DNA of 64,000 bases from Mesorhizobium sp. M3A.F.Ca.ET.080.04.2.1. Lineage in GTDB: Bacteria > Pseudomonadota > Alphaproteobacteria > Rhizobiales > Rhizobiaceae. The position numbers were made by a program, and so were the translations under genes. A model generated the notes under the pieces. It made no database searches. It saw nothing but the letters and a program-made list of their open reading frames with translations, and was not told the DNA's origin. The stretch covers positions 3,410,001 through 3,474,000 of the forward strand of contig NZ_CP034451.1 of the NCBI RefSeq assembly GCF_003952525.1. The letters run 5' to 3'. This document shows positions 45,518-63,622 of this stretch, one piece after another. Positions within the stretch are counted from its first letter, which is position 1. Every line of letters starts with the position of its first letter.

Positions 45518-45925
45518 TCAAGTGTGACCTTTCGGGTCCCCCCAAGGGCGACCCGCGCAAAGTTCCCATAAGTCGGCAGCGGCCAAGCTAACGGGCTGCC
45601 CGTGAGGAGTATGCAAGTGTGCTCGCCGCCATTCGTCTCGTCGGCGTGCCAGTTCCTGGTATGAAACGTGTCCCCCTGCGTCCAGAATACGTTCGAGAGA
45701 AGCCAGCACGGCTGCGTAATAGGTGCTGGTATCGTCGGCACTCCCGGCAGGGTTCGCCAGGCGGACTTCTTCACCTAAGATTTCCGCCCATCTTATTTGC
45801 GAAATCGTTCCCGAACCGATCATTAGATTGGCGATTGCCATTGCCTGCGCTTGCCATGGTTCAGCGAAGATTGGCTCGTCATCTCTTTTCCTCAACGGCC
45901 CCCAGCCTGGATCAGGAACGTTCAA
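45518..45925 (-). CDS. Nitrile hydratase accessory protein (activator, P14K-like)
   Basis: About 135 residues: NVPDPGWGPLRKRDDEPIFA, PWQAQAMAIANLMIGSG, then LASLERILDAGGHVSYQELA and a tail. It resembles the N-terminal part of the beta subunit, as known cobalt-type activator proteins do; these help insert cobalt and oxidise the active-site cysteines. TTG 45925 is proposed as start, overlapping the beta-subunit stop by 14 bases; no ATG fits well. A long upstream extension of the frame lies over the beta gene and is not credible. Confidence 0.75.
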   Translation of the reverse strand: MNVPDPGWGPLRKRDDEPIFAEPWQAQAMAIANLMIGSGTISQIRWAEILGEEVRLANPAGSADDTSTYYAAVLASLERILDAGGHVSYQELARRRDEWRRAHLHTPHGQPVSLAAADLWELCAGRPWGDPKGHT

Positions 45926-46568
45926 GATAGCCCTCCCAAAGATCAACAAAAACCCGGTCCCGGCGGTCCATCGCTTCCGGCCACAGTTCCGACGCAGCGA
46001 AACTAATCGTATAAAGGTGCTCCGCCTTTTGTTCGCCCCGCGCAGACGCATCCGGGAAGACATGGCCACCATGACGGGCGAAGATCGTTCCCTTTCTGCC
46101 GCGCACATAACCGGGAAGACGAGTATGTCCCGATCGCCCCGATATCTTTGCGCGTACGGACTCGCCTAAGGCAAATGATGGCGGAGCTTCGATTTCAACG
46201 GCGTAGCTGCGCGGGTTCTTGACATAGGCTCTGGCGTCCTCCGCCGTCTCCGGCGGCAATCCTGGCTGAGGCGTGAACATCGATGTCCCCGATTTGAGCT
46301 CCGCCAAGGTAATATAGCCCGCGTCGATCATTTGCGCTGTAAGGGTGAGCAGCCAGTGATCGAAATAGGATCGCGTCAGGTAATCCGCCGGAACGATCAA
46401 CTCGCGGCAGTGTCGGAACCAGTCTATCGACCAGTCGCTATCGCCAGCGGCCGCCTGCGCCAATCCAAAAGCACGTGTTTCCCATTGTTCATGGAACGGC
46501 TCCCCATCGCTCGTGCCTTGGATCGAGCCGAACCCTTCCCGCCCACCAAGGTCATGTATGCCGTCCAT
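45912..46568 (-). CDS. nthB: Nitrile hydratase beta subunit
   Basis: A 218-residue subunit beginning with the family signature MDGIHDLGGREGFG. It contains FDHWLLTLTAQMIDAGYITL and, near the C-terminus, a small beta-barrel (YVRGRKGTIFARHGGHVFPD) followed by YTISFAASELWPEA. It forms the heterodimer with NthA that hydrates nitriles to amides. Its start overlaps the alpha stop by one base. Confidence 0.9.
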   Translation of the reverse strand: MDGIHDLGGREGFGSIQGTSDGEPFHEQWETRAFGLAQAAAGDSDWSIDWFRHCRELIVPADYLTRSYFDHWLLTLTAQMIDAGYITLAELKSGTSMFTPQPGLPPETAEDARAYVKNPRSYAVEIEAPPSFALGESVRAKISGRSGHTRLPGYVRGRKGTIFARHGGHVFPDASARGEQKAEHLYTISFAASELWPEAMDRRDRVFVDLWEGYLERS

Positions 46569-47218
46569 CAGCGGTCCCTCTGCGACTGCCAGAGGTCCCT
46601 TTCAGTTCCGATCATCGAATTGCGCGTCACCAACCGCGTAAGAGAGTCCTCATCCAAGCTCTCAGTGCCTTTTGGCTGTTGCGGCAGTACGAGGTATCGT
46701 CTTTCCGACGTCGAGTCCCAGACGCGCACCTCTACGGTGTCTTCGAGGTCGACCCCGAATTCTTTTAGGACACCCCGAGGATCGCGTACGGCGCGCGCCC
46801 TGTATTCGTTGGATTTGTACCATGCCGGCGACATGCCCAGTATGGAGAACGGATAGCAGGAGCAAAGCGTACAGACGACGAGGTTATGAACGTCAGGAGT
46901 GTTCTCGACCACGTCTAGATGACCCGTTCCGTGGCCCGCAAAGCCGAACTCGTCGATTGCCGACGTCGCGTTTGCCAGCAGGCGCGCTTTAAAAGCGGGA
47001 TCTTTCCATGCTCGCGCCACAACTTTCGCGCCGCGCTTGGGTCCGATCTCCTCCTTATACATCTCGATCCATGCGTCCATCGCTTTCGGATCGACCAAGC
47101 GCTTCTCTACCAGGAGGCTCTCGAGAGCCTTCGCTCTCAAAGCCGGTTCGGAGGGCAAGTGGTCGTGTAAATCGTGATGAATCATCGAAAGATTTTTCGA
47201 ATCGAAACTCGTCACCAC
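46568..47218 (-). CDS. nthA: Nitrile hydratase alpha subunit, Co-type
   Basis: A 216-residue metal-bearing subunit. The metal claw is C116-T-L-C119-S-C121 in VVCTLCSCYPF; Thr at the second position is the cobalt-type signature (iron-type has Ser). GMSPAWYKSNEYRARAVRDP follows as expected. First gene of an alpha-beta-activator operon. No amidase gene is adjacent, so the amide product must be handled elsewhere or excreted. Confidence 0.92.
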   Translation of the reverse strand: MVTSFDSKNLSMIHHDLHDHLPSEPALRAKALESLLVEKRLVDPKAMDAWIEMYKEEIGPKRGAKVVARAWKDPAFKARLLANATSAIDEFGFAGHGTGHLDVVENTPDVHNLVVCTLCSCYPFSILGMSPAWYKSNEYRARAVRDPRGVLKEFGVDLEDTVEVRVWDSTSERRYLVLPQQPKGTESLDEDSLTRLVTRNSMIGTERDLWQSQRDR

Positions 47219-47703
47219 GCCCTCTCCATTTTAGGACCTCGGTTCGGGCGCGGAATTTATCACGGGCTCCAGAAGGTTACAAAGAGCACCGCCGTGCCAC
47301 GAGCTTCTCCCATCAAGAAGCTCGCGCGGCCTTGCGCGCGTCGTCATTCGGAACGGAAGTCGCCGATATCGCGCGCGGCTCATGCTGATCCGGGTCGCGG
47401 GCGGCAAGGTCTCACGTATGCTGATGACGGCCTCAACGCTCTGGACCTGCAGATTGGCGGCCGAGTGATCGGTGGGACTGGAGGCATACTCCTACTGATG
47501 ACCAACATGGTCGACGACTGGTTTGCCGGACGGGAAATCGCAACCGCCATAACGCGGGTCCAAATATGCGCAGTTCGCGCGGGGCCTATGAAGCGCGCTG
47601 GTTCATGCGCGCCTCAAATATTCAGGCAGGCAACTATTGGCAACAATGCGGGAAGCGTTCAGGATTGCCAAAGGTCTTTGTCCAGCGACAGGACGTTTGG
47701 GCG
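47219..47703. other. Divergent intergenic region
   Basis: About 485 bases between nthA and the hydrolase gene. It should contain both promoters. Frames crossing it lack ribosome-binding sites and family resemblance; a stretch near 47,420-47,560 (reading NALDLQIGGRVIGGTGGILL) may be a remnant of an older gene, but nothing supports an intact one. Confidence 0.35.
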
Positions 47704-48936
47704 ATGAGTCAGCTGGCTGGCGAGTCGATTGGTGATCCTACGGACCTTGGTTTCGACAAGGCGCGGCTGGCGCGATTGAAGCAATGGATGCAGCGCTACA
47801 CCGACGCCGGGCGCTGGCCTGGCGGCGCGGTTCTCATCGCGCGGCATGGCAAGCTCGCCTACTTCGACTGCGCCGGGCATGCCGATGTGGAGGCCACGCG
47901 GCCTTGGCAGCGCGAGCTCATCGCCCGCATCTACTCAATGACCAAGCCTGTCACGGCCGTCGCATTGTTGACGCTGTACGAGGAAGCGCGGGTGCATCTC
48001 GACGATCCGGTCGAGGCTTATCTGCCGGAATTCAAAGACGTGCAACTTCTGATACCGGACGCAACGTCGCTCGACCAAACGGTGCCTGTCAAAACGAAGA
48101 TGACGATCCATCATCTCTTGACCCACCAATCTGGCCTGAGCCTTTTTACAAACCCCCGCTTGCTCGGCGAAGCCTATGCCAAGGAAACGCTCGGCTTGGC
48201 CTTGGCCTATGGCGGGCTCGACAAGATGGTTCGCAGGATCGCCGAGTTGCCGCTGGAATGGGAGCCTGGCACGAGGTGGCAGTACAGCACTGGCTCCGAT
48301 GTCATCGGGCGCGTAGTTGAAGTCGTTTCCGGCATGACGCTCGACAAATACTTCGCTACGCGGATCTTCGAGCCCCTGGGCATGACCGATACTGGCTTCT
48401 CTGTGCCGGACTCCGAGATCAGCCGCTTCCCCCCGATGTACGAGGTGACTGCGGGCGGCATGGCCTTGAACGAAAGGCCTGAGGTTTCGGCGTGGCGGCA
48501 AGGCAAGGTCGATACGTTCTGCGGTGGCGGCGGGCTTGTCGGAACCATCGACGACTATTGGCGGTTTGCTGAGATGCTACGGGGTGGGGGTGAATTCAAT
48601 GGCGAGCGCATCCTCAGTCCCCGCACCTTGAGCTTGGCGGCGTGCAATCACCTGCCGGGCGATCTTGCCTCGTTGGCAACCGAAGTCTGGGCCGAGACCC
48701 AGTTTGACGGCGTCGGGTTTGGTCTGTTGGGTTCCGTCGTCCTCGATCCGGCCAAGGCACAAATTTCGGCGCGGGTCGGAGACTATGGCTGGGGCGGGGC
48801 CGCAGGCACCTTCTTCTGGGTGAGCCCGATCGACGACATGGTTGTCATTCTCTTCACGCAACTGCTGCCTTCGAGCGCCATTCCGGTGCGCAAAGAACTG
48901 CGCGCACTCGTCCATAGTGCGCTGACAGGTGTCTGA
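47704..48936 (+). CDS. Serine hydrolase of the class C beta-lactamase / esterase family
   Basis: A 410-residue protein. The active-site S-x-x-K is SMTK in ARIYSMTKPVTAVALL near residue 80; the Tyr motif is YSTGS in RWQYSTGSDVIGRVVE; the third element is GWGGAAGTFFW in place of KTG. No signal peptide is obvious, which favours a cytoplasmic esterase or amidase-type enzyme over a true beta-lactamase. The start at ATG 47704 is placed at the beginning of homology; the frame is open to 47,566. Confidence 0.85.
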   Translation: MSQLAGESIGDPTDLGFDKARLARLKQWMQRYTDAGRWPGGAVLIARHGKLAYFDCAGHADVEATRPWQRELIARIYSMTKPVTAVALLTLYEEARVHLDDPVEAYLPEFKDVQLLIPDATSLDQTVPVKTKMTIHHLLTHQSGLSLFTNPRLLGEAYAKETLGLALAYGGLDKMVRRIAELPLEWEPGTRWQYSTGSDVIGRVVEVVSGMTLDKYFATRIFEPLGMTDTGFSVPDSEISRFPPMYEVTAGGMALNERPEVSAWRQGKVDTFCGGGGLVGTIDDYWRFAEMLRGGGEFNGERILSPRTLSLAACNHLPGDLASLATEVWAETQFDGVGFGLLGSVVLDPAKAQISARVGDYGWGGAAGTFFWVSPIDDMVVILFTQLLPSSAIPVRKELRALVHSALTGV

Positions 48937-49872: not shown

Positions 49873-50496
49873 CTAGAGCTTCATTGCTCCATTTTGGGTA
49901 TTCTCTCGGTCACGTATCGTCTTCGGAGCGATTTCGTTGAACCTCGCTAGAAAGGACTCCGCAGCTTCGTATGGGCCTAGAGGGATTATTTCGAAGTCAA
50001 ATGGTTCGGCATCGTCGTCTTCGGCCCAGCGCCGGCCATCCCAATTCAACAGATCACGGCGTTCGGTTGCCCACAATCTCACATCGTAGGTTTTGATGAG
50101 GGCGTGGTCGAAGTTGTCGACCCCGAACGCTGCCATTATCGCGCTGGAGCAATGCTTCTCAATATGCCGATACTCGGGCAATTTGGACTTAAGCGGAGTA
50201 TTCAAATCGCCACACACGGCCTCGCCGCTTTCATGCATCAGCGCGGCATAAGCATGGGACTCTGGGGCGAGCCTGCTCATAATGTCGCAGTGCTGGGCAA
50301 CCGAATAGAAAACGCGCTTGCCGGTGCGCCGACTTACGCACTGGCCGGAAAATCTTCCAGTGAAGGCCAAACTGTACGCCAAATCCGCCAGGGTGACGCG
50401 GCTGTTTTCCGGGTCTTCATAGTCGAAGAAATTGCCTGAACCCAGTAGGATAGTGGGTCCGATTGCGGTTCGAATGCTATTGCCTTTTGTCGCCAT
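49873..50496 (-). CDS. HD-domain phosphohydrolase (YfbR/YfdR/DatZ-like)
   Basis: A 207-residue protein of the HD nucleotidase superfamily. Metal-site residues appear as H69 (YSVAQHCDI), H88-E89 (ALMHESGEAVCGDL) and D97, followed by PLKSKLPEYRHIEK, the usual pattern of phage and bacterial 5'-nucleotidase or dNTPase-type HD proteins. The Asp of the HD doublet is Glu here. ATG 50496 is chosen since homology starts near RVTLADLAYSLAFTGRFSGQ; the frame extends further without similarity. It diverges from the PurZ-like gene by 120 bases. Substrate unknown; dATP or another purine nucleotide is a reasonable guess from context. Confidence 0.78.
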   Translation of the reverse strand: MATKGNSIRTAIGPTILLGSGNFFDYEDPENSRVTLADLAYSLAFTGRFSGQCVSRRTGKRVFYSVAQHCDIMSRLAPESHAYAALMHESGEAVCGDLNTPLKSKLPEYRHIEKHCSSAIMAAFGVDNFDHALIKTYDVRLWATERRDLLNWDGRRWAEDDDAEPFDFEIIPLGPYEAAESFLARFNEIAPKTIRDRENTQNGAMKL

Positions 50497-50555
50497 GCTG
50501 CAAGTGTATAGCAATGAGCCGACCGCTAGTAACCTCCCGTATCTTTCAAAATCCG

Positions 50556-50577
50556 GCCAGCCTTTCCGGAGGCTGGC
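50556..50577. promoter_or_regulatory. Palindrome in the HD / PurZ-like divergent promoter region
   Basis: GCCAGCCT (50556-50563), loop TTCCGG, AGGCTGGC (50570-50577): a perfect 8-base inverted repeat 39 bases before the PurZ-like start. It could be an operator for both divergent genes or an mRNA hairpin in the leader. Confidence 0.45.
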
Positions 50578-50616
50578 AATTGAGTTAGAACCCGGCGAGA
50601 GCAAGCGGAGAATCCT

Positions 50617-51657
50617 ATGCCAGTTACAGTGGTAGTCGGCGGGCAGTACGGCTCGGAAGGCAAAGGCAAGGTTTCCGCTTACGTTACCAGAACAAGTGGC
50701 GCGGCTGCAGTCGTGCGCGTCGGTGGCCCAAATTCGGGCCATAGTGCGGTCAACGACCAAGGTGAACTCATCACGTTGCGTCAACTGCCTGCGGGCGCGG
50801 TAAGCTCGGATGTGCAAATTGTCCTGCCTGCGGGTAGCCTGATCGACCTGCACATACTGCAACGCGAAATAGCCAGGCTGAGCGTGAGTCCGGACCGCCT
50901 ACGAATCGACGGTAATGCCTCCATCATCACTCGTGAGCATATTAATAAGGAAGCTGATCTGGCACTCATGAGTTCAATTGGCTCGACCGCCTCGGGCACT
51001 GGCGCAGCCCTGATGGAGCGCTTGTCGCGCACCTCTGCGCACCGCCTGGCACGAGATGTCAAAGAACTGCAGAACTTTATCGAGCATGACTCGGCGGCCT
51101 ATTTGAGGGGCCTGCTAGATCGCAATGAGCGCGTCGTCATAGAGGGCACACAGGGATTTGCCCTATCCATCTGGCATTCCCACGAGTTTCCGTACGCGAC
51201 TAGCCGCGATACCACGGCAGCTGGATTTGTCTCCGAAGCTGGGTTGGCCCCCCATGACGTCGACGACGTAGTTTTGGTGCTTAGAGCCTTTCCAATCCGC
51301 GTTGGCGGAAACTCGGGTCCTTTGCCTAACGAAATCTCTTGGCCAGAGCTTGCGAGAGAGGCCCATTTGGCGCCCGATTTCGTCGAGTTGACCTCGGCAA
51401 CTCATCGCGTGCGCCGAGTCGGGCGATTTGATCCAAGTATTGTGAAGCGAGCGATAAACAGCAACAGGCCGCATCGAGTCGTAATGAACCACATGGACTA
51501 CATTGATCCCCCCGGCGCCCAAGACAGTCCGACTTGGCGTAGCCAAAAATTCTTAATTCAAGTCGAGCGCGATATGGGCAGACAGATTGACCTTCTCGGC
51601 TTTGGGGCGGCATCACTCGAGCCTCGTTCGAGTGTAAACCTTAGGTATGCAGTATGA
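50617..51657 (+). CDS. Adenylosuccinate synthetase homologue of the PurZ type
   Basis: A 346-residue protein of the PurA/PurZ GTPase-like family; canonical PurA is about 430. The P-loop reads GGQYGSEGKGK with Ser13 where PurA has catalytic Asp13 (GDEGKGK); G-S-x-G-K-G is the phage PurZ form, whose enzymes join Asp to dGMP on the way to diaminopurine. NSGHS keeps the second catalytic His; GSTASGTGAALMERL replaces the IMP-binding GTTGRGIGP; EGTQGFALS and ATSRDTTAAGF match the central block. The C-terminal region is short, as in PurZ. It is coupled (ATGA) to the next gene. Its substrate is not proven by sequence. Confidence 0.8.
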   Translation: MPVTVVVGGQYGSEGKGKVSAYVTRTSGAAAVVRVGGPNSGHSAVNDQGELITLRQLPAGAVSSDVQIVLPAGSLIDLHILQREIARLSVSPDRLRIDGNASIITREHINKEADLALMSSIGSTASGTGAALMERLSRTSAHRLARDVKELQNFIEHDSAAYLRGLLDRNERVVIEGTQGFALSIWHSHEFPYATSRDTTAAGFVSEAGLAPHDVDDVVLVLRAFPIRVGGNSGPLPNEISWPELAREAHLAPDFVELTSATHRVRRVGRFDPSIVKRAINSNRPHRVVMNHMDYIDPPGAQDSPTWRSQKFLIQVERDMGRQIDLLGFGAASLEPRSSVNLRYAV

Positions 51658-52691
51658 AGGTCAGCTTGGAAGCGTTTCACAACCAGGTTGCGGTGCTGGC
51701 CGAGGCCGTTGCCAAATCGAGACTTTCCGCCGACGGGCGCCATGACCTTTTTGACGAGTTTGATCCGTACGCGGGCAAGATTGAGCCCGCCTTGCTGAAC
51801 GCGGGCCATTTGGCCACGTACGCGATGGTTACGGGTATGATTGAGCCCTTCGATGCATCGCGCCTGATCAAGCCTGCGACCTATTTGGTCGCCGCTGAAG
51901 GGCCGGTCAGATATAGGAATGACAAAGGTCACGTAGAGCGTTTCTATCTCTCCGCGGATCCGAAGAAGCGTGAGACGGAATCTTGCGTCCGTGATTCAGT
52001 TCAGATCGCGCCCAATTCCATTTGTTTTTTGACATTGGAACCAACCTTTCGAATGCCATCGTACATCGCGGCAAGGTTCAACTTGTTGATACGGGACGTA
52101 TATCGCGGCTTGCTTGTAGGTACTGGACCATTAGTAGACCCTGGCTTCGATGGTAGGTTATCAATACCAATCCATAATTTCACCACTCAGCCGTACGACA
52201 TTACCGCCGGAGAGGGTATTGTCTATTTTGAATTTACAAAATTGAGCTGGCAAAATCCGGCAAAAGCTCCAGATGAGATATCGTGGCTTCCAGATCCGGT
52301 TAATTGTCAGCCGCCATTTCCCGCTTCAAAAAACAAGCGAAAATCGCTGGACAATTATTTAGCCGAGGCCACGGGTAATGGCCCACCGCAGCACGCGATA
52401 GAACTGTCAATTGCTGAAATGCGAAAGCAGGCTGAGTGGACGCGTAACGTTTTGAATATTGCCACTGTTGCTGGCGCGATTGGCGTGGCGGGACTGGTGA
52501 TTACCTGTTGGCAACTTTTTGCTGGGGCTCAACAATTTGCGGCTGACGCGCAAACAGAACTCAGAGGCTCGCGCTACCAACTTGCTCAGGATGTGCAAGT
52601 CCTGAAAGATCGAGTTGCAGACCTTAAGCGGCAATTGGATGCGTCAATGGGAGCGAATCGGTCACCGGCCAACGCCGCCTCCAACAAATAG
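51654..52691 (+). CDS. dCTP deaminase/dUTPase-fold protein with C-terminal membrane anchor
   Basis: A 345-residue protein. Residues about 80-205 resemble Dcd: ICFLTLEPTFRMPSYIAARF, then GTGPLVDPGFDGRLSIPIHN and PYDITAGEGIVYFEFTKL. The catalytic Glu expected in the LE of Dcd is not there (LSIPIHN), so deamination is doubtful. Residues about 263-285 form one transmembrane helix (ATVAGAIGVAGLVITCWQLF), followed by a coiled coil (RYQLAQDVQVLKDRVADLKR). The DNA is strikingly AT-rich. It overlaps the PurZ-like gene by 4 bases, so the two are made together. Confidence 0.7.
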   Translation: MKVSLEAFHNQVAVLAEAVAKSRLSADGRHDLFDEFDPYAGKIEPALLNAGHLATYAMVTGMIEPFDASRLIKPATYLVAAEGPVRYRNDKGHVERFYLSADPKKRETESCVRDSVQIAPNSICFLTLEPTFRMPSYIAARFNLLIRDVYRGLLVGTGPLVDPGFDGRLSIPIHNFTTQPYDITAGEGIVYFEFTKLSWQNPAKAPDEISWLPDPVNCQPPFPASKNKRKSLDNYLAEATGNGPPQHAIELSIAEMRKQAEWTRNVLNIATVAGAIGVAGLVITCWQLFAGAQQFAADAQTELRGSRYQLAQDVQVLKDRVADLKRQLDASMGANRSPANAASNK

Positions 52692-52781: not shown

Positions 52782-55541
52782 ATGAACGCCGTAGAGATTG
52801 AGGAAGCCATATCGGCCCTCGCCGAGCAGCCGTTCGAACCTGTCGAGTTTCCGTTCGCCTTCCTGCAAGCCTTCGGCAACAAGGAAACGACGATCAAGAA
52901 GTTGCGGGCGGGCGCGTCGAACAAGTCCGACCTTCCCGGCGGCGTGCTTCAGACCAGCAACATCCATATCGCCGTGGCCGCTCCTGGCGAAGTCACAGCG
53001 ACGCTTGGCGTGCTGAAAGCCAGCCCGGCCACGGCCAGGACCAGGGCGAAATTCGTGCTGGCGACAGACGGAGACACCTTTGAGGCCGAAGACCTGGCGA
53101 GCGGCGAAACAGTTGCCTGTGCCTATGCCGATTTCCCGAATCATTTCGGCTTCTTCTTGCCCCTCGCCGGCATCACGACCGTCAAGCAGATACGAGAGAG
53201 TTCTTTCGACATCAGAGCCACCGGCCGTCTGAACCGGCTCTACCGTACGCTGCTGGAAGAAAACCCCGATTGGGATGCCGTCGAGCGCCGAGCGGGAATG
53301 AACCATTTCATGGCGCGGCTGATCTTCTGCTTCTTCGCCGAGGATACCGACATCTTCAACGGCACCGGCCTGTTCACGGCTACAGTCGAGCAGATGAGCG
53401 CGCGCGACTCGTCGAACACCCACGAGGTCATCCGCACGCTGTTCCTCACCATGAACACGAAGATCGCCGAACGGAAGGCGGCTAATCTGCCGAGGTGGGC
53501 CGACACCTTCCCGTATGTGAACGGAGAGCTTTTTTCGGGCAGTATCGACGTACCACGTTTCAGCAAGATAGCCCGTTCCTACCTCATTCACATTGGCAAT
53601 CTCGACTGGACGAAGATCAACCCCGACATTTTCGGCTCGATGATCCAGGCGGTCGCCGACGATGAGGAGCGCGGTGCGCTCGGCATGCACTACACGTCGG
53701 TTCCGAACATCCTGAAAGTCCTCAATCCGTTGTTTCTCGACGATCTGCGGAAGCGGCTTGAGGAGGCCGGCAACAATGCCCGGTCGCTTCTCAACCTGCG
53801 CAAGCGCATGGCGAAGATCAGAGTCTTCGACCCGGCCTGCGGCTCGGGCAATTTCCTTGTCATCGCCTACAAGGCAATGAGGGAGATCGAAGCCGAGATC
53901 AATAAGCTGCGCGGCGAGCCAGACCGGCGCACCGAGATTCCCCTGACCAATTTCCGTGGAATCGAGTTGCGCGACTTCCCTGCTGAGGTAGCACGTCTTG
54001 CGCTCATCATCGCAGAGTTTCAGTGCGACGTTCTATATCGCGGCCAAAAGGAAGCTCTCGCAGAGTTTCTGCCGCTCGATGCGCAGAACTGGATAACCTG
54101 CGGCAATGCCCTGCGGCTGGACTGGCTAAGCGTCTGCCCGCCGACCGGAACGGGCGTGAAGTTTCAGGCCGATGACTTGTTCCATACGCCGCTCGATCAG
54201 GCGCAGATCGACTTCGAGAATGAGGGCGGTGAGACCTACATCTGCGGAAACCCGCCGTACAAGGGGAATGCCAGGAAGACAGCGACACAGAAGGACGATC
54301 TCAAGGCACTGTTGGATGGACGGATCGAGAACTGGGGCTTGCTCGACTACGTCTGCGGGTGGTTCTTCAAAGCGCACGATTATTCAAAGCACACCGCAGC
54401 AAGGTTTGCGTTTGTTGCTACAAATAGCGTGGCTCAAGGTCAGCATGTGTCCAATTTCTGGAAAGCACTCTTTGACGACGGACTGCGCTTCGCTTTCGCA
54501 GTTCGGTCGTTCAAGTGGAGTAACCTTGCGCGCAACGATGCAGGAGTAACGGTTGTCATCGTGGGTGCAGGCAAGGACGCGGGAGAGCGGATCATATTTG
54601 ATGGCGATGTCCGCATCTCGGCGGATAACATAAATGCATACCTGTTGGCCCAAGATAACTTCTGGGTATATGCTTCTAGAAAACCGCTGTCGGCAATTTA
54701 TCCGATGGTCAAGGGAAACTACTATGGCCTTTCGGAACACTTGCTTTTCGACCGAGAGGCGAAAGACGCTTATGTCGCGGCTGGTCTGGATAGCAGGTTT
54801 GTCCGAAAATTCTACGGATCGACGGAAGTAATCAACGCCAAGCCGCGATACTGCTTTTGGTTTGAGGAAAAGCCTGATCCGACAACGCTTGCCGTCAAGG
54901 ACATCGACCAGCGTATTAGAGTTGGCGCAGAGAAGCGATCCGAGTCGGGCGACGCAGTTGCAAACGGCATGGTCAACCGTCCCCACCAGTTTCGTGAGAT
55001 GAACAGCGCCCGACAGCAGTTCTTCGCTATCCCTGTCGTATCCTCCGAAAACCGCGAATTTCTTCCCGTCGACTTGCTCGACAACCAGTCTGTTCTCTCG
55101 AATAAGTGCTTCGCGCTCTACGATGCACCTCTCTGGCACCTCTCACTAGTGGCGTCGCGCCTCCATTGGGTTTGGATCGGGGCGGTTTGTGTTCGTCTTG
55201 AGATGCGGTTTTCGTATTCCAATACCCTCGGATGGAACACCTTTCCGGTCCCCACACTCACCGACAAGAACAAGGCCGACCTGACCCGCTGTGCCGAGGA
55301 CATCCTGTTGACGCGCGAGGGGCATTTCCCGGCGACCATCGCCGACCTATACGACCCGGAGAACATGCCCGCCGACTTGCGCGAGGCGCACGAGCGCAAC
55401 GACGAGGTACTGGAGCGCATATATATTGGTCGCCGCTTCCGCAATGACACGGAGCGGCTGGAGAGGCTGTTTGAACTTTATACAAAAATGACCGCTGCGC
55501 CGAAGTCGGCCGCGAGAGGAAGGGCGAGGGCAAGCGCGTGA
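52782..55541 (+). CDS. DNA adenine methyltransferase (MmeI/Eco57I-like, gamma class)
   Basis: A 919-residue enzyme. SAM-binding motif I is VFDPACGSGNFLV at about 345; the catalytic motif IV is ICGNPPYKGN at about 487; a long C-terminal target-recognition region follows, ending in NTFPVPTLTDKNK and a helical tail. The N-terminal 330 residues have no recognisable PD-ExK nuclease motif. A four-base GTGA overlap links it to the helicase gene. It should protect host DNA in a restriction-type system; specificity unknown. Confidence 0.85.
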   Translation: MNAVEIEEAISALAEQPFEPVEFPFAFLQAFGNKETTIKKLRAGASNKSDLPGGVLQTSNIHIAVAAPGEVTATLGVLKASPATARTRAKFVLATDGDTFEAEDLASGETVACAYADFPNHFGFFLPLAGITTVKQIRESSFDIRATGRLNRLYRTLLEENPDWDAVERRAGMNHFMARLIFCFFAEDTDIFNGTGLFTATVEQMSARDSSNTHEVIRTLFLTMNTKIAERKAANLPRWADTFPYVNGELFSGSIDVPRFSKIARSYLIHIGNLDWTKINPDIFGSMIQAVADDEERGALGMHYTSVPNILKVLNPLFLDDLRKRLEEAGNNARSLLNLRKRMAKIRVFDPACGSGNFLVIAYKAMREIEAEINKLRGEPDRRTEIPLTNFRGIELRDFPAEVARLALIIAEFQCDVLYRGQKEALAEFLPLDAQNWITCGNALRLDWLSVCPPTGTGVKFQADDLFHTPLDQAQIDFENEGGETYICGNPPYKGNARKTATQKDDLKALLDGRIENWGLLDYVCGWFFKAHDYSKHTAARFAFVATNSVAQGQHVSNFWKALFDDGLRFAFAVRSFKWSNLARNDAGVTVVIVGAGKDAGERIIFDGDVRISADNINAYLLAQDNFWVYASRKPLSAIYPMVKGNYYGLSEHLLFDREAKDAYVAAGLDSRFVRKFYGSTEVINAKPRYCFWFEEKPDPTTLAVKDIDQRIRVGAEKRSESGDAVANGMVNRPHQFREMNSARQQFFAIPVVSSENREFLPVDLLDNQSVLSNKCFALYDAPLWHLSLVASRLHWVWIGAVCVRLEMRFSYSNTLGWNTFPVPTLTDKNKADLTRCAEDILLTREGHFPATIADLYDPENMPADLREAHERNDEVLERIYIGRRFRNDTERLERLFELYTKMTAAPKSAARGRARASA

Positions 55542-57604
55542 CCGACGAAAAGAAAACAGTCCCGTCCGTTTCGGTTTCCTATGCCAGTACTGGCTCCTCG
55601 ACTAAGGCCAACGCGCTCGGCATGAGGCCGATGCAGGAGCGCGCCTATGAGCGGCGCGGTGAGCAATATCTTCTCATCAAATCGCCCCCGGCGTCGGGTA
55701 AGAGCCGCGCGCTCATGTTCATCGCCCTCGACAAGCTGACCAATCAGGGCCTGAAACAGGCCATCATCGTCGTGCCGGAGAAATCCATCGGCGCCAGCTT
55801 CAACGACGAGCCGTTAAGCAAGTTCGGTTTCTGGGCCGACTGGGCCGTGGAGCCGAAATGGAATCTTTGCAATGCCCCTGGTTCGGACAATGGCGGCAAG
55901 GTCAATTCCCTTGGCGTCTTTCTGGGAGGCGACGACAAGGTGCTGGTTTGCACCCATGCAACCTTCCGCTTCGCCGTAGAGAAATTCGGCATCGAGAAGT
56001 TTGACGACCGGCTTATCGCCGTGGACGAGTTCCACCATGTTTCCGCCGACCCGGAAAGCAGGCTCGGCCAGCATCTTGGGCAGCTCATCGCGCGCGACAA
56101 AGTGCATATCGTCGCCATGACCGGGTCCTATTTCCGGGGCGACGCCGTACCCGTTCTCGCTCCACAGGACGAGGAGAAGTTCGATACCGTCACCTACACC
56201 TACTACGAGCAGCTCAACGGCTACGAATATCTGAAATCGCTCGACATCGGCTATTTCTTCTATTCCGGTGCCTATGCCGACGACATTCTCAAAGTCCTCG
56301 ACCCCGGTGAGAAAACTATCATCCACATTCCGAGCGTTAATTCGCGCGAAAGCACGAAGGACAAGATCAGGGAGGTGGAGCATATCATCGAGGAACTGGG
56401 CGCGTGGCAGGGGACCGATCCTGCCACGGGCTTCCAGTTGGTCAAGGCAAAGGACGGCCGCATCCTTCGCATCGCTGATCTTGTCGATGATGATCCGGCC
56501 AAGCGCGACAAGGTCTCCGCCGCGCTGAAGGATTCGGTGCAGAAGAACAATCGCAACCATGTGGATATCATCATCGCCCTTGGCATGGCCAAGGAGGGTT
56601 TTGACTGGATTTGGTGCGAACACGCGCTGACGGTCGGCTACCGCTCGAGCCTGACCGAGATCGTGCAGATCATCGGACGCGCGACCCGCGACGCGCGTGG
56701 CAAGATGCGCGCCCGCTTCACCAACCTGATCGCCGAGCCGGACGCTTCCGAGCAGGTCGTCACCGAGGCCGTCAACGATACGTTGAAAGCCATCGCCGCC
56801 AGCTTGTTGATGGAGCAGGTGCTTGCGCCGCGCTTCGAGTTCAAGCCGAAGAACCCGACGAGCGGCCCGACTCCCGGCTTCAATTACGGCGAGGGCGGAT
56901 ATGACCCTAACAAGTGCAATGTCGGCTTCAATGAAAATACCGGCGAGTTCCAAATCGAGATCAAGGGCCTCGCCGAGCCGACGAGCAAGGAGGGACAACG
57001 GATCTGCCGGGAGGATCTGAACGAGGTCATTGCCGCCTTCGTTCAGGACAAGACTGCCATCGAACGCGGCCTGTTCGACGAGGAACTGGTGCCGCAGGAA
57101 CTGACGCAGGTCAGGTTGGGCAAGATCATCAAGGACAAGTACCCTGGACTCGGCGAGGAGGATCAGGAGGCGGTGCGGCAGCACGCCATCGCTGCGCTCA
57201 ATTTGACGCAGCAGGCCAAGCAGATCGCGCTTGGCGGTGGGGGTGGCGGGAGTGATGAACCGCCATCCAACACCGCCCTGATCGACGGCGTGCGCAAGTT
57301 CGCAATGGACGTGCGCGAACTCGACATCGATCTGATCGACCGCATCAATCCGTTCGGCGAAGCCTATGCCATCCTCGCCAAGACCATGAGCGAGGACAGC
57401 TTGAAACAGGTTGCCGCCGCCATCGCCGGCAAGCGTACCAGCTTGACGCCGGATGAGGCCAAGGAACTCGCCGTGCGCGCCGTGAAATTCAAGAAGGAAC
57501 GCGGACGGCTCCCGTCCATCAGCTCCACTGACGCTTGGGAGAAACGGATGGCCGAAGGCGCCGCTGCCTTCGTCCGCTTCAAGGACGAGGGCCGCTATGA
57601 GTGA
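55538..57604 (+). CDS. SF2 DEAD/DEAH-like helicase
   Basis: A 688-residue helicase. Motif I is IKSPPASGKSRAL near 50, motif II VDEFHHV near 165, motif III AMTGSYF near 195, motif VI QIIGRATRDARGK near 385. The C-terminal 250 residues are specific to this group. GTG 55538 overlaps the methyltransferase stop. Probably the translocase of a restriction-type complex that moves along unmodified DNA. The stop overlaps the nuclease start by 8 bases. Confidence 0.85.
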   Translation: MTDEKKTVPSVSVSYASTGSSTKANALGMRPMQERAYERRGEQYLLIKSPPASGKSRALMFIALDKLTNQGLKQAIIVVPEKSIGASFNDEPLSKFGFWADWAVEPKWNLCNAPGSDNGGKVNSLGVFLGGDDKVLVCTHATFRFAVEKFGIEKFDDRLIAVDEFHHVSADPESRLGQHLGQLIARDKVHIVAMTGSYFRGDAVPVLAPQDEEKFDTVTYTYYEQLNGYEYLKSLDIGYFFYSGAYADDILKVLDPGEKTIIHIPSVNSRESTKDKIREVEHIIEELGAWQGTDPATGFQLVKAKDGRILRIADLVDDDPAKRDKVSAALKDSVQKNNRNHVDIIIALGMAKEGFDWIWCEHALTVGYRSSLTEIVQIIGRATRDARGKMRARFTNLIAEPDASEQVVTEAVNDTLKAIAASLLMEQVLAPRFEFKPKNPTSGPTPGFNYGEGGYDPNKCNVGFNENTGEFQIEIKGLAEPTSKEGQRICREDLNEVIAAFVQDKTAIERGLFDEELVPQELTQVRLGKIIKDKYPGLGEEDQEAVRQHAIAALNLTQQAKQIALGGGGGGSDEPPSNTALIDGVRKFAMDVRELDIDLIDRINPFGEAYAILAKTMSEDSLKQVAAAIAGKRTSLTPDEAKELAVRAVKFKKERGRLPSISSTDAWEKRMAEGAAAFVRFKDEGRYE

Positions 57605-58790
57605 CCTTGACCTCGACGATCTCCGCGCCGAACTCGACGACTTCGCCGTCCCTGAGAAGAAGGGCGGGCGTTCACCGCGCGAGGAGCGCATCATCGCCGG
57701 ATTTGACGAAATCCAGCGCTTCGCCGAGCAGCATGGCCGCGCGCCGCAGCACGGCGAGGACCGCGACATCTTCGAGCGGCTTTACGCCGTGCGCCTCGAC
57801 CGGCTGCGCGCGCTGGAGGAATGCCGTTCGCTTCTTTTGTCGCTCGACCGGCAGGACTTACTTGCCCCCGAGGAGGTCGTCGTCACCGGCCCGGTAGAGG
57901 AAATGGGCGAGGACGAGTTGCTCGCCGAACTGGGGGGTGTGGCCGGATCGTCCGACATCACGGAGCTGCGGCATGTACGTGCCAGCGCTGAAAAGCGTAC
58001 AGCGGAGGAGATCGCCAACCGCGATCCCTGCCCGGATTTTGGGAAGTTCAAGCCGTTGTTCGCCAACGTTCAGCGCGACCTCGACACCGGCGTCAGGACA
58101 ACCCGCTCGTTTGTGAAGGATGCCGGTTTCCTGAAAGCGGACATCACGGAAGGCCAGTTCTTCGTTCTTGGCGGCCAGATCGCCTACGTTGCCGAAGTTG
58201 GCGAAACCTTCAAAGCCCCAAATGGGGAATACGACGCTCGTCTGCGGGTCATCTATTCCAACGGGACGCAAAGCAATTTGCTGCGCCGGTCGCTCCAGCG
58301 CGCACTGTACAAAGACGAGGCGGGGCGGCGCATCACCGACCCGACGGCCGGGCCGCTGTTCGCCGGGGAGAGCGAACAAGGGGACCTTGCCAGCGGTACA
58401 ATCTACGTCCTGCGCAGCAAATCCGACAACCCGGTTGTCGCTGGGCGCCGTGACGTGCTGCACAAGATCGGCGTCACCGGCGGGGATGTGAAAACGCGCG
58501 TCGCCAACGCGAAACTCGATCCGACCTTCCTGCTGGCTGACGTGGAGATCGTCGCCACCTATACGCTCTACAACATCAACCGCACCCGGCTTGAAAACTT
58601 GATTCACCGCATCTTCGACCCGGCCCGCCTCGACATCGAGATCAAGGACCGCTTTGGCCATCCCGTTATTCCGCGCGAATGGTTCCTTGTCCCGCTATTC
58701 ATCATCGACGAGGCCGTCGAGAAGATCAAAAGTGGCACCATCGCGGACTATGTCTATGACCCAAATGTCGCTGCGTTGGTACGCGTCTAA
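57597..58790 (+). CDS. GIY-YIG nuclease family protein (T5orf172-like)
   Basis: A 397-residue protein. A helical N-terminus (residues 1-130) precedes the nuclease domain at about 265-350: the GIY strand is TIYVLRSKSD, the YIG strand HKIGVTGGDV with KTRVANAK supplying the Arg, and the catalytic Glu is probably in RLENLIHRIF. The final 40 residues are extended. Last gene of the methyltransferase-helicase-nuclease unit and the likely cleavage subunit. Confidence 0.82.
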   Translation: MSDLDLDDLRAELDDFAVPEKKGGRSPREERIIAGFDEIQRFAEQHGRAPQHGEDRDIFERLYAVRLDRLRALEECRSLLLSLDRQDLLAPEEVVVTGPVEEMGEDELLAELGGVAGSSDITELRHVRASAEKRTAEEIANRDPCPDFGKFKPLFANVQRDLDTGVRTTRSFVKDAGFLKADITEGQFFVLGGQIAYVAEVGETFKAPNGEYDARLRVIYSNGTQSNLLRRSLQRALYKDEAGRRITDPTAGPLFAGESEQGDLASGTIYVLRSKSDNPVVAGRRDVLHKIGVTGGDVKTRVANAKLDPTFLLADVEIVATYTLYNINRTRLENLIHRIFDPARLDIEIKDRFGHPVIPREWFLVPLFIIDEAVEKIKSGTIADYVYDPNVAALVRV

Positions 58791-62355: not shown

Positions 62356-62383
62356 ACTGTTTTTGCTTAGCGAGAGCACAGAG

Positions 62384-63622
62384 ATGAACGACTTTAGAGT
62401 TTCTATTACGCACACGACCCGTCGGCGTAAGCTAAAGGACGGCAAGGTTGCGCACTATGACCAGTATTACTGCGAGTACCGCGATCCGAAGTTGAAGCGC
62501 AGGCGCCGCCGCGCCTTCAATCGTAAGAAGGATGCCGAGGCCTTCCGGAATGCCCTGCTAATCAAGGTTTCTGAGGGCAAGTATGTCGACGAACGAACTT
62601 CGCCAACCCTCGGCAAGGCCATAGATCATTGGTTGGCAGACAAAGAAGGCAAGGTGAAGCCCTCGACCCTCATGGGATATAAGGTTGTCGTGAACGGCGC
62701 TATCCGTGGTCCGTTGTTGGTCGGCACCGCTCAAGAGCGGGCAAACTATACCGAAACCGGCGTCGCGCCGGAGGGAGCCCGGTTTCTCCAGCTTCTTGGT
62801 GACGTAAAGCTGACTGATCTAAACCCCGCGATGCTCCGAGTTTGGCACAAGACCATTGTGGACCACTGCGGCATCTACACTGCCAATCGGGCAAAGAGCC
62901 ACATCAAATCGATCACGGCCCTTGCCGAGGAAGATTTCCTGGTAAGGGCGCCGTCGATGCCGACTGGGCTTACGAGGGTCCGGAACCGTCCGAAGAAGGC
63001 AATCTTGACCCCGGAAGACATCGCGAAGGTGGTCCGGGCCGCCAAAGATGACGCAGAATGCGGCATCTACTACGCCTTCGCTTTCCTCGCCGGGACGCGA
63101 CCGTCCGAGCAGCTGGGCCTGCTCTGGTCCGAGGTGGATTTCGACAAGAACGTGATCCACATTCGCCGCATCCAGGAGCGCGATGGAACGCTCACCGAGA
63201 TGACCAAAACCGAAGCCGGTACTCGCGACATCCCAATGAGCGCCGTGTTGCGTGAGATGCTGCTGGCTTGGCGGGTCCGCTGCCCGAGAAAGGGCAAGGA
63301 GCTACACCGCGTCTTCCCCGGCCCCGGCCGGCTACAGGAATGGCCGAAGCCCCGCCTCGGCGGCGGTGGGCCGCTGCTCTACCAAAACTTCCGTAAGCGT
63401 TACTGGACGCCGGTCTTCAAGCGTCTGGGCCTTCCGTATGTGACGCCGCATTCGGCGCGCCACTCCTTTATCTCGACCTTGCAAGCTCAAGGCATTGAGA
63501 TCGGTCTGGTCGCGCAGATCGCCGGCCATGCGAACCCGACCGTGACGCTTGGCCACTACACCCAGGCGGTTCGTGACGGCAGTGCTGCAATGGAGGCGCT
63601 GGACCGGGCCTACGGTGGGTAG
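62384..63622 (+). CDS. int: Tyrosine recombinase (site-specific integrase)
   Basis: A 412-residue phage-type integrase. The N-terminal arm-binding domain starts SITHTTRRRKLKDGKVAHYD; a SAM-like core-binding domain follows. Catalytic residues are R239 (AGTRPSEQLGLLW), a Lys in the KTEAGTRDI turn, H356 and R359 (HSARHS), H382 (GHANPT) and Y392 (LGHYTQ). ATG 62384 is preferred to a TTG at 62,363. It is the likely enzyme for integration at the tRNA-Gly anticodon loop; the fact that it lies near the right end fits an intact tRNA beyond the window. Confidence 0.9.
   Translation: MNDFRVSITHTTRRRKLKDGKVAHYDQYYCEYRDPKLKRRRRRAFNRKKDAEAFRNALLIKVSEGKYVDERTSPTLGKAIDHWLADKEGKVKPSTLMGYKVVVNGAIRGPLLVGTAQERANYTETGVAPEGARFLQLLGDVKLTDLNPAMLRVWHKTIVDHCGIYTANRAKSHIKSITALAEEDFLVRAPSMPTGLTRVRNRPKKAILTPEDIAKVVRAAKDDAECGIYYAFAFLAGTRPSEQLGLLWSEVDFDKNVIHIRRIQERDGTLTEMTKTEAGTRDIPMSAVLREMLLAWRVRCPRKGKELHRVFPGPGRLQEWPKPRLGGGGPLLYQNFRKRYWTPVFKRLGLPYVTPHSARHSFISTLQAQGIEIGLVAQIAGHANPTVTLGHYTQAVRDGSAAMEALDRAYGG

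Follow-up and report, generated by a model that had tools for sequence, protein, structure and literature searches.

In the 64,000-nt stretch of Mesorhizobium sp. M3A.F.Ca.ET.080.04.2.1 analysed here (contig NZ_CP034451.1, positions 3,410,001 to 3,474,000; hereafter the window, to whose positions all coordinates refer, L and G numbers being labels of compared loci and genomes), three genes for nucleotide-enzyme-like proteins lie side by side. The first, on the minus strand at 49873..50496, encodes a 207-residue HD-superfamily phosphohydrolase resembling 5'-deoxynucleoside monophosphate (dNMP) phosphatases (PHROG 318, E = 5.8e-61; PDB 2gz4, E = 2.5e-11). Across a divergent intergenic region of 120 bp (50497..50616) there follows, on the plus strand, a short PurZ-like homologue of adenylosuccinate synthetase (346 residues, 50617..51657), which scores 274 bits with NF003295 and 244 bits with NF038379, the latter under the curated cut-off of 300. 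Its end overlaps, in the letters ATGA, the start of a plus-strand gene for a membrane-anchored protein of 345 residues with the dCTP-deaminase/dUTPase fold (51654..52691). Both promoters presumably lie in the intergenic region, where neither a promoter-like consensus nor an Rfam match was seen; scans for promoters, terminators and Rfam families found no signal above the level of chance. All three genes had been noticed at these places in an earlier sequence-only reading, which suggested that they could be a bacterial defence or nucleotide-sensing trio derived from Z-DNA biosynthesis genes. Our results retain a conserved accessory module of nucleotide enzymes in defence-rich neighbourhoods, but they reduce its core to two genes and speak against descent from Z-DNA genes.

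That core is the synthetase and the membrane protein. Scanning one genome for each of 84,980 species with a synthetase profile gave 442 pattern matches and 412 relatives, and all counts of cellular loci below refer to the best 80 of these 412 (332 others were left out, and the kinase-DUF7002 type described later is not among the 80). A gene for the membrane protein lies within 4 kb of the synthetase in 79 of the 80 loci by a profile that itself contains many of the counted proteins, and in 78 by phmmer with the window protein as the single query; the sole miss of the profile, L107, is a cut gene with a transposase-like open reading frame (ORF) beside it. Among viral PurZ loci, counted throughout as the best 80 of 251 viral relatives, the same profile finds none at E ≤ 1e-15 and three weak, short matches at 1e-5, and when viral sequences were scanned with the membrane protein, a single weak locus came up. 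The distances of the two proteins correlate at 0.61 over 76 loci, to which shared host descent may add, against 0.12 for the best of 2000 permutations. The sequence-only reading had staked its module on the genes being conserved together, and for the pair they are. By their record titles, 53 of the loci belong to Pseudomonadota, 8 to Bacillota, 14 to eleven other bacterial phyla, 3 to no named phylum and 2 to archaea, so that the pair is spread over thirteen bacterial and two archaeal phyla. Within the genus of the window, at E ≤ 1e-3, the membrane protein has matches in 9 of 99 genomes, five of them weak and four full length (the window, the L041 type, G501 and G504, the latter two with a nuclease protein beside the synthetase). 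The window's genome has a single copy of the PurZ-like synthetase and a separate full-length PurA, which in the tree described below is almost the same as the PurA of M. qingshengii, and since full-length PurA is kept in all 40 of the 80 carrier genomes that were tested, the synthetase gene is accessory. The module itself, a two-gene core with exchangeable partners that was probably spread horizontally, is well supported. None of the papers listed in the literature searches, outside which most subscription papers lie, describes such a pair or system.

What kind of synthetase is it? The codon of residue 13 (50653..50655, plus strand) specifies Ser at the position that aligns with Asp13 of PurA. 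In the accessible parts of two reports, Ser in place of Asp13 is given as the mark of PurZ (PMC12884076), and this Ser sits beside the 2-amino group of deoxyguanosine monophosphate (dGMP) in PurZ (PMC8342488). Ser13 is present in 79 of 79 readable relatives (L080 is cut short); one of the two search patterns demands it, so that in the 47 relatives matched only by that pattern it is built in by construction, and the informative count is 32 of 32 relatives that were also caught by the Ser-free pattern. The PurA loci have Asp at this position in 16 of 16 cases in an alignment for which Asp was not asked, which replaces an earlier count of 11 of 11 that was circular, its rows having been picked by an Asp-containing pattern. 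Because Lys16, His42, Gln179, Arg266 and Arg267 are kept in 81 of 81 synthetases, the enzyme looks active.

Phylogeny places it apart from both of its obvious relatives. The tree, obtained by a quick search with branch support from the Shimodaira–Hasegawa-like approximate likelihood ratio test (SH-aLRT) only, has 61 rows, including a partly random draw of 31 from 80 prepared pair-type rows (the window, L033 and 78 of the 80 loci, with L080 and L107 left out); five PurA loci missed by the P-loop pattern were dropped. PurA forms one clade (SH-aLRT 100). The window lies in the Ser-type part of the tree with the phage enzymes, but in a branch of its own kind, the support of the pair-type clade being only 83. 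In approximately unbiased (AU) tests, grouping the window with PurA is rejected (p = 5e-5), as is grouping it with PurA plus the archaeal and toyocamycin-type rows (p = 2e-4). These results, together with Ser13 and the separate PurA of the carriers, dispose of a housekeeping PurA, the grouping under which, by the sequence-only reading's own account, the idea of a module would fail. An offshoot of phage PurZ is likewise rejected for the window: it and the eight phage PurZ rows do not form one clade (p = 3e-66). A phage-only PurZ clade is rejected as well (p = 2e-4), yet it is not rejected once the phage-like chromosomal copies L007 and L008 are admitted (p = 0.34), and we therefore do not claim multiple origins of phage PurZ. 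In these two copies (L007:758-3145 and L008:772-3116), whose synthetases nest among phage PurZ in the tree, a Ser13 synthetase follows a cytidylate-kinase-like gene and precedes one that looks like HAM1/RdgB, both judged by eye.

The genes that surround PurZ in viruses tell the two settings apart. Matches to DutZ (Ghobes gene 55) occur in 54 of 80 viral but 0 of 80 cellular loci, matches to DmtZ (Ghobes gene 53) in 32 and 0, and DpoZ-like polymerases in 36 and 1; queries with two other phage dUTPases each hit a single cellular locus (L096 and L113), while single-sequence queries with DatZ and MazZ found nothing in 80 cellular and 80 viral loci alike and hence come without a positive control. 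A remnant or relocated phage cluster for Z-DNA biosynthesis would explain Ser13 and the profile similarity to PurZ, and PurZ0 phages do pair PurZ with a dUTPase-fold enzyme, DutZ, which hydrolyses dATP and dGTP according to the available part of the report (PMC12884076). However, the near absence of phage DutZ, DmtZ and DpoZ from the cellular loci, the rejected clade with phage PurZ and a partner that is not of the phage kind make this account very improbable; the membrane protein of L054 has no tblastn match at E ≤ 1e-5 in 50,697 phage records. The same holds for a device directed against Z-genome phages, which the sequence-only reading had also considered: a precursor of Z would be produced by the enzyme, not removed by it. 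The module is neither a Z-DNA cluster nor housekeeping PurA; it is cellular and accessory, and its partner is membrane-anchored and deaminase-dead. As the distribution of DutZ indicates, PurZ and the dUTPase fold have been brought together in two settings, with a soluble hydrolase of deoxynucleoside triphosphates (dNTPs) in phages and with a membrane-anchored, deaminase-dead relative in cells, which may hint that the partner handles the substrate or product of PurZ in both. Eight viral contigs (L202-L209, five of them longer than 90 kb) encode synthetases 41-51% identical to that of the window, and no membrane protein, DpoZ or DmtZ match was found within 4 kb of them.

The membrane protein shares its fold with dCTP deaminase and dUTPase. 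In its structure model (mean predicted local distance difference test score, pLDDT, 89.7) the fold occupies residues 46-203 (51789..52262, plus strand), and it scores 35.7 bits with TIGR02274, against a cut-off of 92.8. In the alignment Pro172 (codon 52167-52169, plus strand) falls on a Glu of PDB 4xjc and 2qlp, which we take, from the PDB titles, to be the catalytic Glu138 of E. coli dCTP deaminase. This position is Pro in 84 of 84 family members and the RSS motif is lost, while nine positions are invariant, among them Arg141, Asn143, Gly152, Asp162, Pro163 and Asn175 in 84 of 84; such a pattern of loss and retention is as expected of a ligand-binding domain that would not deaminate. Added to the fold are a predicted transmembrane helix (residues 266-284, 52449..52505, plus strand, by hydropathy) and its continuation into a long C-terminal helix of the model (274-335). 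At the hydropathy threshold used, 80 of 87 ORFs of the family have a hydrophobic helix, the other seven being three fragments and four closely related rhizobial proteins. The protein could thus be a sensor with a membrane effector part.

The HD phosphohydrolase, by comparison, was seen with the pair in the window's subclade only. It accompanies the pair in six known loci only (the window, L033, L034, L035, L041 and L042; a seventh match, L194, is the L041 locus again), which comprise the window, two draft genomes and three plasmids; in all six it has the same place and orientation and takes the place of the nuclease(-kinase) protein found elsewhere. The trio of the sequence-only reading is rejected for this reason. 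The idea that the HD protein is the phage dATP triphosphohydrolase DatZ finds no clear support: the protein matches the DatZ family PHROG 7076 at E = 0.012, compared with 5.8e-61 for PHROG 318. One DatZ is reached by blastp at E = 0.02 and scores 17.7 bits with a profile of the HD relatives, so that the two proteins appear to be kin at least at the level of the HD superfamily. Of the metal site, His69, His88 and Asp138 are kept, and the HD dyad reads HE, as in 6 of 6 window-type HD proteins, versus HD in 6 of 6 proteins of the DUF7002 type.

Three nucleotide enzymes in a row could also mean defence by depletion, in which PurZ, the deaminase-fold protein and the HD protein drain dGMP, dGTP or other dNTPs and no messenger is made. 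The family name of the HD relatives marks them as dNMP phosphatases, Asp162 is invariant, and DutZ, found near 54 of 80 viral PurZ genes, is a hydrolase with the dUTPase fold (PMC12884076, as far as its accessible part goes). A precedent for a nucleotide-depleting defence enzyme is offered by Clover, whose CloA and CloB are, in the portion of its description available, a dGTPase and a nucleotidyltransferase; compared by that description only, it resembles the present system in using an HD-family enzyme and nucleotide signals in defence. On the other hand, neither the RSS motif nor the Glu is kept, soluble dNTP hydrolases have no need of the hydrophobic helix present in 80 of 87 ORFs, and a synthetase such as PurZ would be a roundabout route to depletion. 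We therefore consider this explanation rather unlikely.

Most loci possess further partners. A nuclease(-kinase) protein occurs in 72 of the 80 by profile within 4 kb and in 73 by clustering within 6 kb (clustering missed L112; L061 and L106 fall outside 4 kb), and also in two viral PurZ loci (L235 and L242). Its domains were scanned in L054, where it consists of an RNase H-fold exonuclease and a C-terminal kinase; the matches to DUF429 and to the kinase are under the Pfam cut-off, and the kinase is backed by its fold. Short forms of 543-547 residues occur in L090, L092 and L113. A gene for a deoxynucleoside kinase (dNK) is present in 23 of 80 loci, and this set of partners fits the supply and phosphorylation of dNMPs. 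In a genome-wide search of 12 genomes for the nuclease-kinase, those of the window, L041, L042, L043, L050, L068 and L081 had none and the other five were positive, so that in the window's genome any phosphorylation of the synthetase product would have to use another kinase. Nuclease, NMP-kinase-like domain and dNK are equally activities of a salvage type, and adenylosuccinate-lyase matches near 2 of 80 loci can be read in the same way; the pair might then belong to an accessory operon that recycles damaged or foreign DNA, with the membrane protein as its regulator and no role against phages. Yet full-length matches are confined to 4 of the 99 genomes compared in the genus, PurA is already there in all 40 genomes tested, and the neighbourhoods are rich in defence genes, all of which makes plain salvage or repair an improbable explanation. 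Two side observations concern the partners. The lokiarchaeal locus L092:6001-10120 comes close to a complete dZTP-type pathway: its consecutive genes encode the synthetase, a form of the membrane protein whose ORF begins within the fold domain, a deoxynucleoside kinase and an adenylosuccinate lyase. A conserved protein of about 250 residues that starts MQ(N/D)RYVGD and shows, by eye, a DPDNG motif is encoded in 22 of 80 loci; its copy at L094:5077-5832 has no Pfam or PADLOC match.

A related arrangement occurs on Agrobacterium and Rhizobium plasmids and in other genomes of the window's class, where a kinase-PurZ fusion is followed by a DUF7002 protein (L004-L006, identified by Pfam, and L036 and L038-L040, identified by phmmer). 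Like the window, these modules have a Ser13 synthetase (7 of 7) and, in six of the seven loci, an HD gene, which is divergent in L005, L006, L036, L039 and L040 and in L038 lies close by in convergent orientation; in L004 no HD gene was seen, and a macro-domain protein is present. Unlike the window, they have the synthetase fused to a kinase-like domain and DUF7002 instead of the membrane protein. The fusion-type synthetases form their own branch (SH-aLRT 100), and the AU test does not reject a common clade with the pair-type synthetases (p = 0.19). Since kinase, Ser13 synthetase and HD phosphatase recur here with another candidate effector, the comparison supports a common logic in which a modified nucleotide would be made and then acted upon. 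No paper containing the term DUF7002 was found in the same search.

Biosynthesis of a purine analogue, such as a nucleoside antibiotic, is a further context in which PurA-like genes turn up. On a Rhizobium leguminosarum plasmid, L037:7375-15715 carries genes for FolE, a PurA-like protein, PurB, QueE, IMP dehydrogenase, nitrile hydratase alpha, QueC and QueD, presumably a toyocamycin/sangivamycin-like pathway, and in the window nitrile hydratase alpha and beta genes (45912-47218) lie 2.7 kb from the module. That the pair belongs to such a cluster is nonetheless highly improbable: the L037 protein carries Asp at position 13 and lies on a separate branch, no queuosine-type gene was recognised by eye among gene clusters present in at least three loci, and the nitrile hydratase genes fall outside the stretch common to the window and L041.

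Several neighbouring genes of the window provide its context. A beta-lactamase-family (serine hydrolase) gene (47566-48936) adjoins the nitrile hydratase genes. Downstream of the module, on the plus strand, lie genes for an MmeI-type IIG restriction enzyme (52782-55541), a helicase (55538-57604) and a T5orf172/MUG113 nuclease (57597-58790), which overlap tightly, and a tyrosine integrase (62363..63622; PF00589, E = 1.2e-17). The genes for the IIG enzyme and the helicase also adjoin the M. qingshengii locus L041, with DNA identity of 82-84%, but have no DNA match beside L033, L034, L035 and L042; enzyme, helicase and nuclease were accordingly rejected as parts of the module. Elsewhere, the copy on pSymA of S. 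medicae adjoins genes that by eye look like E1, JAB and ubiquitin-like genes.

Taken together, the results point to an anti-phage or abortive-infection system, hitherto undescribed, which would consist of a PurZ-like synthetase, a deaminase-dead membrane sensor and exchangeable partners; judging from the sequences, we give this reading a probability of about 0.42. The evidence for the module and its association is strong, and from it we infer a mechanism that might run as follows. Infection, or in the common form the partner nuclease, would raise dGMP, which the synthetase would join with aspartate into succinylated 2-amino-dAMP (dSMP), the compound that phage PurZ makes. A kinase, whether fused to the nuclease, a dNK or, in the window's form, one of the host or phage, would phosphorylate dSMP; the dCTP-deaminase-fold domain would bind the phosphorylated product, and rearrangement of the membrane helices would then arrest growth or harm the membrane. 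The role of the HD phosphatase in the window's clade might be to hold down the level of precursor or messenger until infection.

The sequence-only reading had proposed looking for known defence genes around the module, and the neighbourhoods are rich in them. In a sample of 40 genomes, 36 of which had control stretches and from which 25 pairs were drawn by a fixed random seed, 129 PADLOC families matched (E ≤ 1e-20) the 101 proteins encoded next to the 25 loci, compared with 2 families that matched the 107 control proteins taken from the same genomes (ORFs of at least 250 residues). The matches beside the loci were led by type I restriction subunits.

Several points weigh against the reading as an immune system. 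The PADLOC figure counts overlapping families, not loci, and among the 25 of 129 families listed, the majority of which are of type I restriction, none matches more than 3 of the 101 proteins; the controls lean to the core genome, so that the contrast is qualitative. The PADLOC models have no match at E ≤ 0.1 in the three window proteins and weak or partial matches only in relatives and partners, and since no model recognises the core, it is the neighbourhood and distribution of the pair that speak for a role in defence. Asp162, a possible counterpart of the catalytic Asp of dUTPase, is kept, which makes hydrolysis possible, and of the six loci with an HD gene, four (L033, L034, L035 and L042) have a membrane helix that does not reach the threshold. 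PurZ with a dUTPase-fold neighbour is not peculiar to cells, given the soluble phage DutZ. The window's genome lacks the nuclease-kinase, and L113 at least lacks the kinase part. Finally, the lyase matches near two loci would fit dZMP, not dSMP, as the product.

With these reservations, the pair is a candidate new system of the nucleotide-signalling kind, whose nearest working analogue is Kongming (KomABC) and whose nearest sequence relatives are the phage PurZ enzymes. In Kongming, according to the portions of the reports available, dITP made by KomA and kinases activates KomB-KomC (PMC12948488, PMC12774641). The likeness would lie in a nucleotide-modifying enzyme that, with a kinase, yields a non-canonical deoxynucleotide through which a sensor triggers an effector. 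Going by those descriptions, the two differ in their proteins, KomA and the KomB-KomC NADase complex there and a PurA/PurZ-family synthetase and a dCTP-deaminase-fold membrane protein here, and the present module often comes with its own nuclease and kinase.

A cellular branch of PurZ, nearly always beside a deaminase-dead membrane fold and in restriction-rich neighbourhoods, suggests that cells signal with PurZ chemistry. It is possible, though doubtful, that the pair represents a widespread immune system, present in bacteria and some archaea, that signals through a deoxynucleotide carrying an amino acid; PurZ would make this messenger from aspartate and a guanine nucleotide, and a membrane-tethered dead nucleotide-enzyme fold would read it. 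Amino-acid-conjugated nucleotides would then join the cyclic and deaminated ones as messengers of immunity. The finding also bears on the origin of phage PurZ, through which some phages are known to replace adenine: if the proposal is right, a single Ser13 synthetase family would have been put to two uses, in the phage Z-DNA enzymes and in the immune enzyme, each with its own kind of dUTPase-fold partner, and PurZ-carrying phages might meet or exploit the immune system.

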